Translations under genes and position numbers: made by a program
In this document: piece after piece, positions 45,718 to 52,716 of the stretch
Layout: each line of letters begins with the position of its first letter
How positions within the stretch are numbered: position 1 is the stretch's first letter
DNA from: Limnohabitans sp. Hippo3
GTDB lineage: Bacteria; Pseudomonadota; Gammaproteobacteria; Burkholderiales; Burkholderiaceae_C
Direction: 5' to 3'
NCBI RefSeq assembly: GCF_003063665.1
Contig: NZ_NESF01000014.1
Span: 1 to 64,000 of the forward strand
Length of the DNA stretch: 64,000 bases
Notes under the pieces: generated by a model
What the model was told of the DNA's origin: nothing
The model's database searches: none
Seen by the model: only the letters and a program-made list of their open reading frames with translations

Positions 45718-47076
45718 TCAGTCTCCTTCTGCGTTGAGCAGCACGGTGGTGGTGTGCACGGCATTACGCGGCATGAGCACGGCGGCAGCGGCGATGACTT
45801 CGCGCACGGTGCGTGTGGCGCCGCCGCCACCGGCCGGGCCGTTGGTGTAAAGCGCTTCGACCTCGTGCGCCACATGCTGGGCTTGTGTCAAGGTGGGCAC
45901 GCGCAGGGCCACGCGGGCACGCACTTCGGCGGGTTCTGTCATTGCTGCGCTGGAGGGGCCGAAGATCGCGTTCACGCCGATCAGGTCGTAGCGACCTTCG
46001 AACTCGGCATAACCGGCATCGGCCAGCCGTTGTCGCACCAGCTCCAGCGCCAGTTGGCCCCGTGCCTGCGCGCCCGGCCCGGCATAGCTGATTTGGCCCT
46101 CGCCAATGAAGCCGTCGCGGTAGCCCAGGGTGACCTTGAGCGTGTCGGTTCGGGTATGGCCGCTGCCACCGGTCACTTGAACGCGATCTGGGGCCAGCTG
46201 CGTCAGCTGCACCTGAGAAAAATCGGCCACCACATCGGGCTGCAGGTAGCGGGCGGGGTTCTCGATTTCGTAGAGCAGTTGTTCCGTGCAAGTGACCACC
46301 GTGACGCAGCCGCCAGAGCCCGCCACTTTGGTGATGACGGCTTCGCCCGAGGCGCTGACTTCGGCCAGCGGAAAACCCAGTCGGGCCAGGTGGGGTACAT
46401 CCTTGTAGCCCGGATCGGCAAAGTAGCCGCCTGTGATCTGCGCCGCGCATTCCAGCAAATGCCCGACCAGGACGCCTTGGCCCAGCCGCGTCCAGTCATC
46501 GGATGCCCAGCCAAAGTGGTGCATCAAGGGGGCCAAAAACAGCGCCGGATCGGCCACGCGGCCGGTGATGATGACCTGGGCGTCGGTTTGCAGCGCGGGC
46601 AGCAGGGCTTCGGCCCCCAGGTAGGCGTTGGCCGAAATCAGTTGGGGTTGCAGATCGGCCAGGATTTGCGTGCTCTCCAGCACGGGCAGCGCCAAGCCGG
46701 TTTGGCTCAGGGTGGCCAGCACATCGTCGCCCAGCACCACCGCCACTTTGACTTGGGACAAACCCAATTCACGGGCCACAGCCAGCACCGCGTGCCCGGC
46801 CTGCAGCGGGTTGGCCGCACCCATGTTGCTGATGATGCGGGTCCCATTGCGAATGCAGGCGGGCAGCACGGCACGCATGCGGGCTGGCAGCATCAGGTCA
46901 AAGCCTGCATCCGGGTCTTTACACCGCTCCAGTTGCGCCAAGGCAATCGTCCGCTCGGCCAGGCACTCGAACACCAAATAGTCCAGCTGGCCTTTTTCGG
47001 CCAGCTCCACGGCAGGCGCAATGCGGTCGCCGGCATAACCCGCGCCTGCGCCGATGCGAAGAGTTGTTTTGTGCAT
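45718..47076 (-). CDS. AtuA-like protein, main domain (DUF1446)
   Basis: This 452-residue protein is the DUF1446 part of AtuA-type proteins. The start IGAGAGYAGDRIAPAVELAE and the segments DYLVFECLAERTIALAQ, LISANAYLGAEAL and VIITGRVADPALFLAPL are family hallmarks. The biochemical role is not established. In this window it forms a run with the small AtuA-C protein and an orphan Bug receptor. No acyl-CoA carboxylase genes of the full atu pathway are present, so terpene use cannot be claimed. Confidence 0.88.
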   Translation of the reverse strand: MHKTTLRIGAGAGYAGDRIAPAVELAEKGQLDYLVFECLAERTIALAQLERCKDPDAGFDLMLPARMRAVLPACIRNGTRIISNMGAANPLQAGHAVLAVARELGLSQVKVAVVLGDDVLATLSQTGLALPVLESTQILADLQPQLISANAYLGAEALLPALQTDAQVIITGRVADPALFLAPLMHHFGWASDDWTRLGQGVLVGHLLECAAQITGGYFADPGYKDVPHLARLGFPLAEVSASGEAVITKVAGSGGCVTVVTCTEQLLYEIENPARYLQPDVVADFSQVQLTQLAPDRVQVTGGSGHTRTDTLKVTLGYRDGFIGEGQISYAGPGAQARGQLALELVRQRLADAGYAEFEGRYDLIGVNAIFGPSSAAMTEPAEVRARVALRVPTLTQAQHVAHEVEALYTNGPAGGGGATRTVREVIAAAAVLMPRNAVHTTTVLLNAEGD

Positions 47077-47128
47077 CCTGCAAGCTTAATGGAGTAGGCA
47101 TCCACAGGCTGTCTCGAGGGAGCTTGGA

Positions 47129-47955
47129 TTTAATTGGGGTCAGATCCCAATTAAACTGCTTGTCCTCTTCAAGGAGTTCCCATGGCCCGCCAACCCCGCC
47201 TCACCGTTGCCGCTTACCCGCACCACGTCATCCAGCGCGGCAATGACCGCCAAGCCATCGTGCGCGACGATGCGGACCGCGAGCGTTTGCTGGCGCTGTG
47301 GCAAGAGCATGCACAAACTTTCAAGGTGGCCATCCATGCCTACGTGATCATGGACAACCATTTCCATCTGCTGGTCACACCCGAAACCGACACGGGTCTG
47401 CCGCAGATGATGCAGGCCGTCGGCCGGGCCTATGTGCGCTATTTCAATCTGCGGCACCAGCGCACCGGTACGCTGTGGGAAGGCCGCTACCGCAGTAACC
47501 TCATTGAGAGTGAGCGCTATCTTTTGGCGTGTATGGTCTACATCGATCTGAACCCGGTGCGGGCAGGCATGGTGGGACAGCCTGCGGATTACAAATGGTC
47601 CAGTCACAGGCACTGTATTGGGCAGGGCAGCGACAAGTTGGTGACGACGCATGCCCTGTTTTGGGGCTTGGGCAATACCCCGTTTGCGCGCGAGGCCGCT
47701 TATGCCGAGTTGGTGCAGGCCGGTCTGGCGCAGTCAGATAAAGAACAGTTGACTCAAAGCGCCTTGTCAGGATGGGCGTTGGGTTCAGCCAATTTTGTCC
47801 AGGCATTGCAGCAGTCCACGAATCGCCGACTGCAGCCGGGAAAGGCTGGGCGGCCTTTCAAGAAAACCGTCGAATCTGCATCCGATTAAATCTGTCCCCA
47901 ATTAATCCTAAGCCAATTCAAAAGCCAAATTAATTGGGATCTGACCCCAATTAAA
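47129..47955. mobile_element. RAYT-like HUH transposase element with 26-bp inverted ends
   Basis: Outer bases 47129-47154 and 47930-47955 are exact reverse complements over 26 bp. Each end is also a hairpin by itself, with stems TTAATTGGG / CCCAATTAA (GTCAGAT or its complement in the loop). A third, variant copy at 47884-47907 includes the TAA stop of the transposase gene. The element of about 0.83 kb contains one gene. Its right end is 4 bp from the gltB -35 box. Confidence 0.85.
47182..47889 (+). CDS. REP-associated tyrosine transposase-like protein (Y1/HUH family)
   Basis: This 235-residue protein belongs to the IS200/IS605-like Y1 transposases, RAYT branch. The N-terminal RLTVAAYPHHVIQRGNDRQ is typical, the HUH motif is H60-F61-H62 in DNHFHLLVTP, and the catalytic tyrosine is probably in the helix with ERYLLACMVYIDLNPVRAGM (Y113 or Y120). 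It starts after a good AAGGAG site (47171-47176). Such proteins nick single-stranded hairpin ends; the flanking hairpins are the likely substrate. A C-terminal basic tail (GKAGRPFKK) could bind DNA. The gene appears intact. Confidence 0.9.
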   Translation: MARQPRLTVAAYPHHVIQRGNDRQAIVRDDADRERLLALWQEHAQTFKVAIHAYVIMDNHFHLLVTPETDTGLPQMMQAVGRAYVRYFNLRHQRTGTLWEGRYRSNLIESERYLLACMVYIDLNPVRAGMVGQPADYKWSSHRHCIGQGSDKLVTTHALFWGLGNTPFAREAAYAELVQAGLAQSDKEQLTQSALSGWALGSANFVQALQQSTNRRLQPGKAGRPFKKTVESASD

Positions 47956-47959
47956 AAGT

Positions 47960-47988
47960 TTGGCACGGTTGCTGCAGTGCACTACACT
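47960..47988 (+). promoter_or_regulatory. sigma-70 promoter of gltBD
   Basis: TTGGCA (47960-47965), 17 bp, then TACACT (47983-47988). The gltB ATG at 48022 is preceded by TAGGAGCG. The promoter starts 4 bp after the right end of the RAYT element, so any upstream activator sites were separated or replaced by it. Confidence 0.7.
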
Positions 47989-48021
47989 CTTCGATCTGCG
48001 TGAAAACCCTTAGGAGCGCCC

Positions 48022-52716
<4,695 letters not shown>

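Follow-up and report, generated by a model that had tools for sequence, protein, structure and literature searches.

A probably long-domesticated TIRYT-type transposase gene lies upstream of gltBD and may encode a regulator that acts through the element's old right end

In the window, i.e. the whole stretch of 64,000 nucleotides of Limnohabitans sp. Hippo3 DNA that was analysed, a Y1 transposase gene stands between two terminal inverted repeats directly upstream of the gltB promoter (Table 1). The original prediction had placed a RAYT-type gene with hairpin ends beside this promoter, which motifs, profile scores and folding bear out. The two arms are 26 nt each and 100% complementary, as had been claimed, with 775 nt between them. 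Each end also folds alone: as single-stranded DNA the left end (folded as 47129-47155) forms a hairpin of -7.5 kcal/mol, equalled by none of 200 shuffles, and the right end one of -6.3 kcal/mol, equalled by 1 of 200. A third copy of the end had been said to carry the stop codon of the transposase. The copy is present as a half copy, ATCTGTCCCCAATTAA (site 1), and as it begins right after the TAA stop (47887-47889), it abuts the stop codon and does not carry it. Counted on the sequence, 49 bp separate the G of GTCC in site 1 from the G of GACC in site 2, and 17 bp the latter from the -35 box. The right arm ends at 47955 and TTGGCA starts at 47960, which leaves the predicted gap of 4 bp.

Table 1. 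Features of the transposase-gltB locus in the window
Feature	Position	Strand	Basis or remark
Left terminal inverted repeat	47129..47154	+	hairpin TTAATTGGG-loop-CCCAATTAA; motif GGGGTCAGA
TIRYT / RAYT-like Y1 transposase gene, 235 aa	47182..47889	+	ORF, Pfam, NCBIfam, motifs
Right-end site 1, ATCTGTCCCCAATTAA	47890..47905	+	directly 3' of the stop codon
Right terminal inverted repeat	47930..47955	+	contains site 2, TCTGACCCC, at 47940-47948
gltB promoter, sigma-70-like, TTGGCA-17-TACACT	47960..47988	+	promoter scoring; relatives share its position relative to site 2
gltB, glutamate synthase large subunit, 1564 aa	48022..52716	+	ORF; linked in relatives

The promoter scores 9 of 12, and shuffles of the region average 0.5 such sites. 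Rfam gave no match in 46900-48200 up to E = 1, a terminator scan made one leftward terminator-like call where shuffles give 1.4, and plasmid records returned partial matches only, to other transposase or gltB genes. The left end is kept in the 30 Limnohabitans loci read, with single changes in some and a truncation in L022. At six loci (L023, L025, L027, L028, L034, L094) tandem half copies resembling TTAATTGGGGTCA precede the left hairpin, as if ends had been added serially.

The protein matches Pfam Y1_Tnp (2.7e-13) and scores 80.2 bits against NCBIfam REP_Tyr_transpos (NF047646), barely above the cut-off of 80; with 21.3 bits against the curated IS200 cut-off of 55 it falls outside IS200/IS605. 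The HUH pair is H60/H62 and the catalytic tyrosine Y120, LWEGRY occupies residues 98-103, and the C-terminal part carries W161..LGNTPFxR and a G223-R224-P225 tail. The TIRYT or TIRtron class (Di Nocera et al. 2013, PMC3733652) equals TnpA-Y1 subclass 2.1 and RAYT group 1 (Quentin et al. 2018, PMC6006769), described with NH(V/Y/F)H, W(E/Q) and Y(I/V)xLNP motifs, long TIRs with GGGGWSAS, no GTAG REPs, about 238 aa in all and a C-terminal helix-turn-helix-like domain; Quentin et al. suggest a DnaA-like C-terminal domain for subclass 2.1. The window gene resembles this class in size (235 aa, median 238), in the Y1 core motifs of subclass 2.1 (NHFH, LWE, YIDLNP), in low copy number and in its exact 26-bp TIRs, which contain GGGGTCAG, fitting GGGGWSAS, and show no GTAG REP. 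Judged by motifs and ends, it is a TIRYT and fits subclass 2.1 / RAYT group 1. Neither Pfam nor PDB profiles matched a helix-turn-helix in the window protein, and a PDB profile search with the C-terminal part returned nothing below E = 0.17.

The predicted fold has a mean pLDDT of 68.8, which is low in the C-terminal part, and helices appear there at low confidence. Its best solved-structure match is E. coli TnpA-REP 4er8 (Foldseek TM 0.74 by target; by VIA, Z 15.3 over 160 residues, rmsd 3.1). The two proteins differ, since identity is 16-17% and 4er8, with 165 residues, is shorter at the C-terminus; 4er8 binds GTAG-tagged REP hairpins, whereas the window element has GGGGTCAGA palindromes. 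Matches to Thg1 structures were taken as a shared palm/ferredoxin-like arrangement only.

Near-identical copies of the gene are absent from the window genome (2.99 Mb), the two other protein matches being only 27-28% identical. These two, distant Y1_Tnp matches, lie at C2:67742-68062 and C27:135490-135717 (L002, L003). A search with the 25-nt core of the end, allowing up to 3 mismatches, gave 11 strand matches at 8 places, the two ends included, and the reversed pattern gave none. Searching the genome for the end, as the original prediction had proposed, yielded six further copies, one of them an inverted pair 52 bp apart (C1:579303, L008), so that dispersed inverted pairs related to the flanks of the gene, which define REPIN-RAYT systems, are found in this genome. 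At C3:62980 (L010) two copies face opposite ways at a distance of 105 bp, more than in the other inverted pairs. With up to 2 mismatches the hairpin occurs in 84 of 90 Limnohabitans genomes (1 to 29 strand matches, own ends included), and 62 of 150 family genomes have a related pattern (up to 3 mismatches); the control was 0 in both cases. Among the matches listed, inverted pairs about 46-63 bp apart recur in several genomes, and they were read in three family genomes. Tandem hairpin runs in one orientation with 30-51 bp spacing, unlike the inverted pairs elsewhere, were seen in G009 (C1:169070-169198) and on contig C64 of G008. The dispersed hairpins are REPIN-like and suggest that the enzyme, where its catalytic centre is intact, still acts, or has recently acted, on such hairpins in trans.

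The position of the gene is shared widely. A protein match at E up to 0.001 was found in 85 of 90 Limnohabitans genomes, three of which (G011, G043, G067) match only at the level of distant paralogues; among 56 good genomes G043 alone has no strong match, and its gltB was likewise not found. Stronger TIRYT matches could be placed in 82 genomes, gltB in 82 and both in 81, and in all of these 81 the TIRYT precedes gltB on the same strand, 132-217 bp from match to match. For the family, 150 genomes were drawn evenly over 141 genera; 142 gave a TIRYT match, which may include distant paralogues, and 143 a gltB match. Among the matches listed, both genes are linked on the same strand within 2 kb in 135 of the 137 genomes where both were placed; in two of these the genes are 0.9 and 1.1 kb apart. 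G121 and G138, additional to the 135, carry a diverged TIRYT at gltB. The unlinked pair consists of G163, where each gene lies near a contig end and linkage is not judgeable, and G203, a real separation. At the order level at least 25 linked genomes were found, 21 of them outside the family and in six further families, a count of entries that looked linked and not a rate; the TIRYT is within 650 bp of gltB in 19 of the 21 and at 1.5 and 3.8 kb in the other two. Many families of the order have gltB with no linked TIRYT. Among 76 named loci, gltB follows just downstream in 56 and in none of the 20 more distant ones.

Both in the genus and in the family, the TIRYT mostly gives one match per genome among the matches listed. 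The absences of the two genes overlap: within 133 good family genomes, 3 are without a gltB match, 4 without a TIRYT match and 2 without both (hypergeometric chance near 0.002). In the genus the identities of TIRYT and gltB are correlated (Spearman 0.56; none of 2,000 permutations as high). The left neighbourhood is less stable. In 8 of 30 genus loci, the window included, the TIRYT adjoins the gene that is its next neighbour to the left in the window, and in a ninth that gene lies about 1.4 kb off. By eye, the sequence left of the left hairpin varies between species (loci L012-L041), whereas the part between this hairpin and gltB is conserved, so that the left end often marks a synteny breakpoint. 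Two TIRYT-gltB loci were seen on contigs C1 and C17 of genome G069, where perhaps two strains were binned together. Two more (L094, L095), about 31 kb from each other on the MAG contig JASGCM010000001.1, have the same flanks but opposite orientations; this record, labelled Alphaproteobacteria, is probably a mislabelled Burkholderiales genome with a palindromic assembly error.

Fourteen gltB loci were fetched as having no linked TIRYT listed; a fifteenth (G178), cut at a contig edge, was left out. Two of the 14 had a TIRYT after all, three ended too soon to judge, one of these three showing the site pair described below, one was G203, and eight were without TIRYT and without the pair. The upstream regions of these eight (two in the family, six from other families) look unrelated by eye, and none is a clean empty site against which an insertion could be dated.

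The right end was read at 79 linked loci. Of these, 60 come from the family, where they have the lowest handle numbers among 133 linked loci, and 19 from the order, where G292 and G289 were left out of the 21 linked ones. Nearly all share one layout, in which the TIRYT stop codon is followed by site 1 (TGTCCC and an AT run), site 2 (TGACCC and an AT run) and the gltB promoter. The strict site pair, 47-50 bp apart, is present in 72 of 79 loci vs 43 of 7,900 shuffles, and nine other spacing windows gave 0-2 of 79. A looser pattern (65 of 79) admitted some false site 1 matches, e.g. in L122 and L148, and we relied on the strict one. The promoter, sought 11 to 24 bp from site 2, could be scored in 57 of the 79 loci; site 2 stands 17 or 18 bp from the -35 box in 55 of these 57, vs 30 of 2,850 shuffles. 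The spacing between stop codon and site 1, by contrast, is loose, at -12 to 762 bp (56 loci). At L132 a whole gene on the opposite strand, Dps-like by eye, lies between TIRYT and sites, and the sites stayed with the gltB promoter.

Within the genus the exact bipartite pattern has 62 matches in 61 of 90 genomes; 61 matches lie directly upstream of gltB, 73-74 bp before the gltB match, and the remaining one adjoins a TIRYT whose gltB was not found. The exact pair is absent from 29 genomes; loci L015, L016 and L033 carry a one-letter variant, and in one part of the genus the palindrome of site 2 is lost while TCTGACCCC and the spacing are kept. A right-end motif was found at 76 of the 79 loci and a left-end motif at 32, with opposite-strand controls of 8 and 3 (the searched stretches differ in length). 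At G203 gltB keeps the pair at 48-bp spacing, with a -35-like TTG 18 bp on (by eye), although the TIRYT, dead by eye, stands on a different contig, where the 2.1 kb read contain none of these sites. None of the eight TIRYT-less gltB loci that reach far enough upstream has the pair. Site 1 can pair near perfectly with the left half of site 2 in single loci, e.g. L130; gapless column tests for covariation in the right end gave no consistent helix.

A first reading of the promoter had used the -24/-12 consensus of sigma-54 and taken TGGCAC-N5-CTGCA for these elements. The GG is lost in many relatives whereas TTG-17-TA(N)3T stays, and sigma-70 was therefore preferred. A dyad-like TGCTGC-N3-GCANTA fills the spacer between -35 and -10 (35 of 57 loci by the loose pattern TGC-N-GCANTA) and may be the operator of another regulator. 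Because of its fixed phasing to the -35 box and its persistence after loss of left end and catalysis, the right end appears to belong to the gltB promoter region. The proposal that the element isolates gltBD from upstream regulators finds no backing in an end that is phased to the -35 box and persists without the left end.

The catalytic residues are often lost while the gene is kept. Each of the 30 genus loci read has H60, H62 and Y120. The full set is found in only 45 of the 79 family and order loci; at least one of the residues is missing from the other 34, and 19 of these have none left. The catalytic segments align plainly (e.g. MDNHFHLL vs APDEVRLL), and the dead proteins are still full length. 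On a gene tree made without the catalytic columns, intact and lost states require 13 changes (about 26 with shuffled labels), of which well-supported branches force only 2, and the counts of loss given here ignore kinship. R102, W161, G164, T166, P167, F168, R170, G223 and R224 do not vary across the 129 aligned rows, which represent 128 genes (one gene appears twice, as L127 and L222) and include 54 rows (53 genes) with lost catalytic residues. Only these motif positions are invariant, and column-averaged conservation is lower in the C-terminal part (0.59) than in the HUH part (0.68). The GRP tail in its basic surroundings may resemble an AT-hook, and AT runs flank the sites. Purifying selection is strong in Limnohabitans, with a median dN/dS of 0.082 (435 pairs), compared with 0.052 for the gltB N-terminus; L233, a gene cut at a contig end, was left out of the dN/dS and residue counts.

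One tyrosine-less genus has the gene in 21 of 21 genomes, with the tyrosine in none and both histidines in 9 of the 20 readable ones. There gltB follows in all 20 genomes where it was found; 14 of the 21 loci pass the site-pair pattern, and the seven that fail it have degenerate, palindromic or inverted forms by eye. The median dN/dS of this catalytically dead genus is 0.41 (0.16-0.82), so constraint is weaker than in Limnohabitans. Loss of catalysis goes along with loss of one end only. Where the centre is intact, 27 of 45 loci have the left-end motif, and where it is lost, 5 of 34 do (Fisher P = 6e-5, a value that overstates the evidence because the loci are related by descent), and the gltB-side pair is present at 37 of 45 vs 28 of 34 by the loose pattern (P = 1) and 41 of 45 vs 31 of 34 by the strict one. 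The suggestion that the gene may be domesticated is well supported by the fixed gltB linkage, by catalytic loss with the gene kept and by the invariant motif residues.

On balance we favour, by a small degree of belief over doubt, an ancient domesticated Y1 transposase gene of TIRYT type before gltBD, whose protein is a candidate double-strand DNA-binding regulator acting via the old right end. The putative operator would be the two direct sites, spaced by about 48 bp and phased to the promoter, and the lineages, which range from intact enzymes to proteins without catalytic residues, would represent graded domestication of a transposase. That across much of Burkholderiales a Y1 transposase serves as a catalysis-independent regulator of gltBD, with its own former right end as operator, we hold to be an evenly balanced proposition. 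The linkage, the geometry, catalytic loss with retention of the gene and the invariance of some non-catalytic motifs were observed. Binding, gltB transcription as the target and the sign of regulation are what we infer from geometry, co-occurrence and conservation.

In such a scheme the ancestor of these families would have acquired a TIRYT element upstream of gltB, the right end of which came into fixed phase with the -35 box and was then absorbed into the promoter. The two TIR-derived sites, in the same orientation and 47-50 bp apart, would thereby have become an upstream control element of the gltB promoter, and the end-recognising protein a regulator of gltBD. It would be kept for binding the site pair, for which the C-terminal domain and the basic GRP tail, not the nuclease centre, would be needed; nuclease centre and far end could then have decayed in several lineages. 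In Limnohabitans, where the catalytic residues and a small hairpin population are kept, the protein may still process single-stranded hairpins in trans. Against the regulator reading speak the helix-turn-helix that profile searches did not recover, the mean conservation of the C-terminal part, which is below that of the HUH part, the dN/dS of the dead genus and its seven loci that fail the site pattern, the mere two losses that well-supported branches force, the 29 Limnohabitans genomes that are without the exact pair and the many families with gltB that are without a linked TIRYT.

Its main rival is exaptation in cis only, which we consider unlikely though of some weight. The AT-rich right end would be an UP element, a spacer or the site of another regulator, the protein would have another job, and the TIRYT would stay because its 3' end and the gltB promoter lie together. 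A right end that serves the promoter alone would account for the site geometry without the protein. Such a view fits the AT-rich site 2 in fixed phase to the -35 box, the restriction of the exact pair in the genus to gltB, and G203, where the pair persists without an adjacent TIRYT; the displaced gene of G203 is also kept, however, and the eight TIRYT-less gltB loci with enough upstream sequence have no pair. It likewise does not account for dead proteins that are kept at full length with invariant C-terminal motif residues, and the unrelated job would have to outlast the loss of catalysis in several lineages.

It appears improbable that the gene is explained by RAYT-REPIN symbiosis, with a single-copy RAYT that keeps hairpin pairs in trans and a position at gltB that is mere history. 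The hairpin matches in genus and family genomes, the inverted pairs and the intact catalytic residues of the 30 genus loci are what this would predict, but it leaves unexplained the catalytic loss in 34 of 79 loci, the loss of the left and not the right end, and the phasing to the promoter. Positional inertia of an inert ancestral insertion that was simply never deleted is very improbable: vertical descent and the correlated identities of TIRYT and gltB agree with it, but the low dN/dS in Limnohabitans and the open reading frames across genera do not, nor does the finding that the left neighbour changes within the genus and the right one does not. A recent or still mobile insertion that cuts gltBD from its regulators, which intact hairpin ends and HUH/Y residues in the window might suggest, is refuted almost beyond doubt by the position at gltB shared by all 81 genus and 135 of 137 family genomes from a sample of 141 genera, mostly with one match each; nor did any of the eight TIRYT-less gltB loci judged offer a clean empty site.

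The locus departs from TIRYTs as described in the main texts cited above by its fixed synteny with gltB, by a bipartite right end phased to a promoter and by HUH/Y loss in many relatives. RAYTs are already regarded as probably domesticated and, at subgenus level, mostly vertically inherited (PMC6006769); Bertels et al. 2017, as cited there, called them domesticated for their housekeeping-like behaviour. For the patchy spread of class 2 overall, Quentin et al. (PMC6006769) favour horizontal transfer, and they take the classes to share one single-strand editing activity. Their tree includes sequences with HuH and Y motifs only, which may be why dead members went undiscussed in that paper. The main texts of PMC3733652 and PMC6006769 contain no word beginning with 'Burkholder', and 'glutamate' is absent from that of PMC3733652. 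With REPIN-RAYT systems (Bertels and Rainey 2011, PMC3116915) the locus shares a single-copy transposase and dispersed inverted hairpin pairs, while no REPs were reported near genes of subclass 2.1 (Quentin et al. 2018, PMC6006769), and the present protein is kept also without catalytic residues. Our literature search found no paper that ties gltB or glutamate synthase to a RAYT or tyrosine transposase; known gltB regulators of the group may exist.

A further parallel is TldR, which originated from nuclease-dead TnpB. If the regulator reading holds, the present protein would resemble these RNA-guided transcription factors (PMC13418256) as a bacterial transposon protein turned transcription factor, and would differ from the TnpB-derived, RNA-guided TldR in being derived from TnpA and in having its own transposon end as candidate operator.

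This lineage bears on the question of what single-copy RAYTs do for their hosts. Its constant position, its possible target promoter in a core nitrogen operon, its putative operator and its naturally dead versions open that question to direct tests. From the dead versions it would seem that DNA cutting is not required for the benefit, in those lineages at any rate, and the old element end in the gltB promoter region may now be a switch of nitrogen assimilation.
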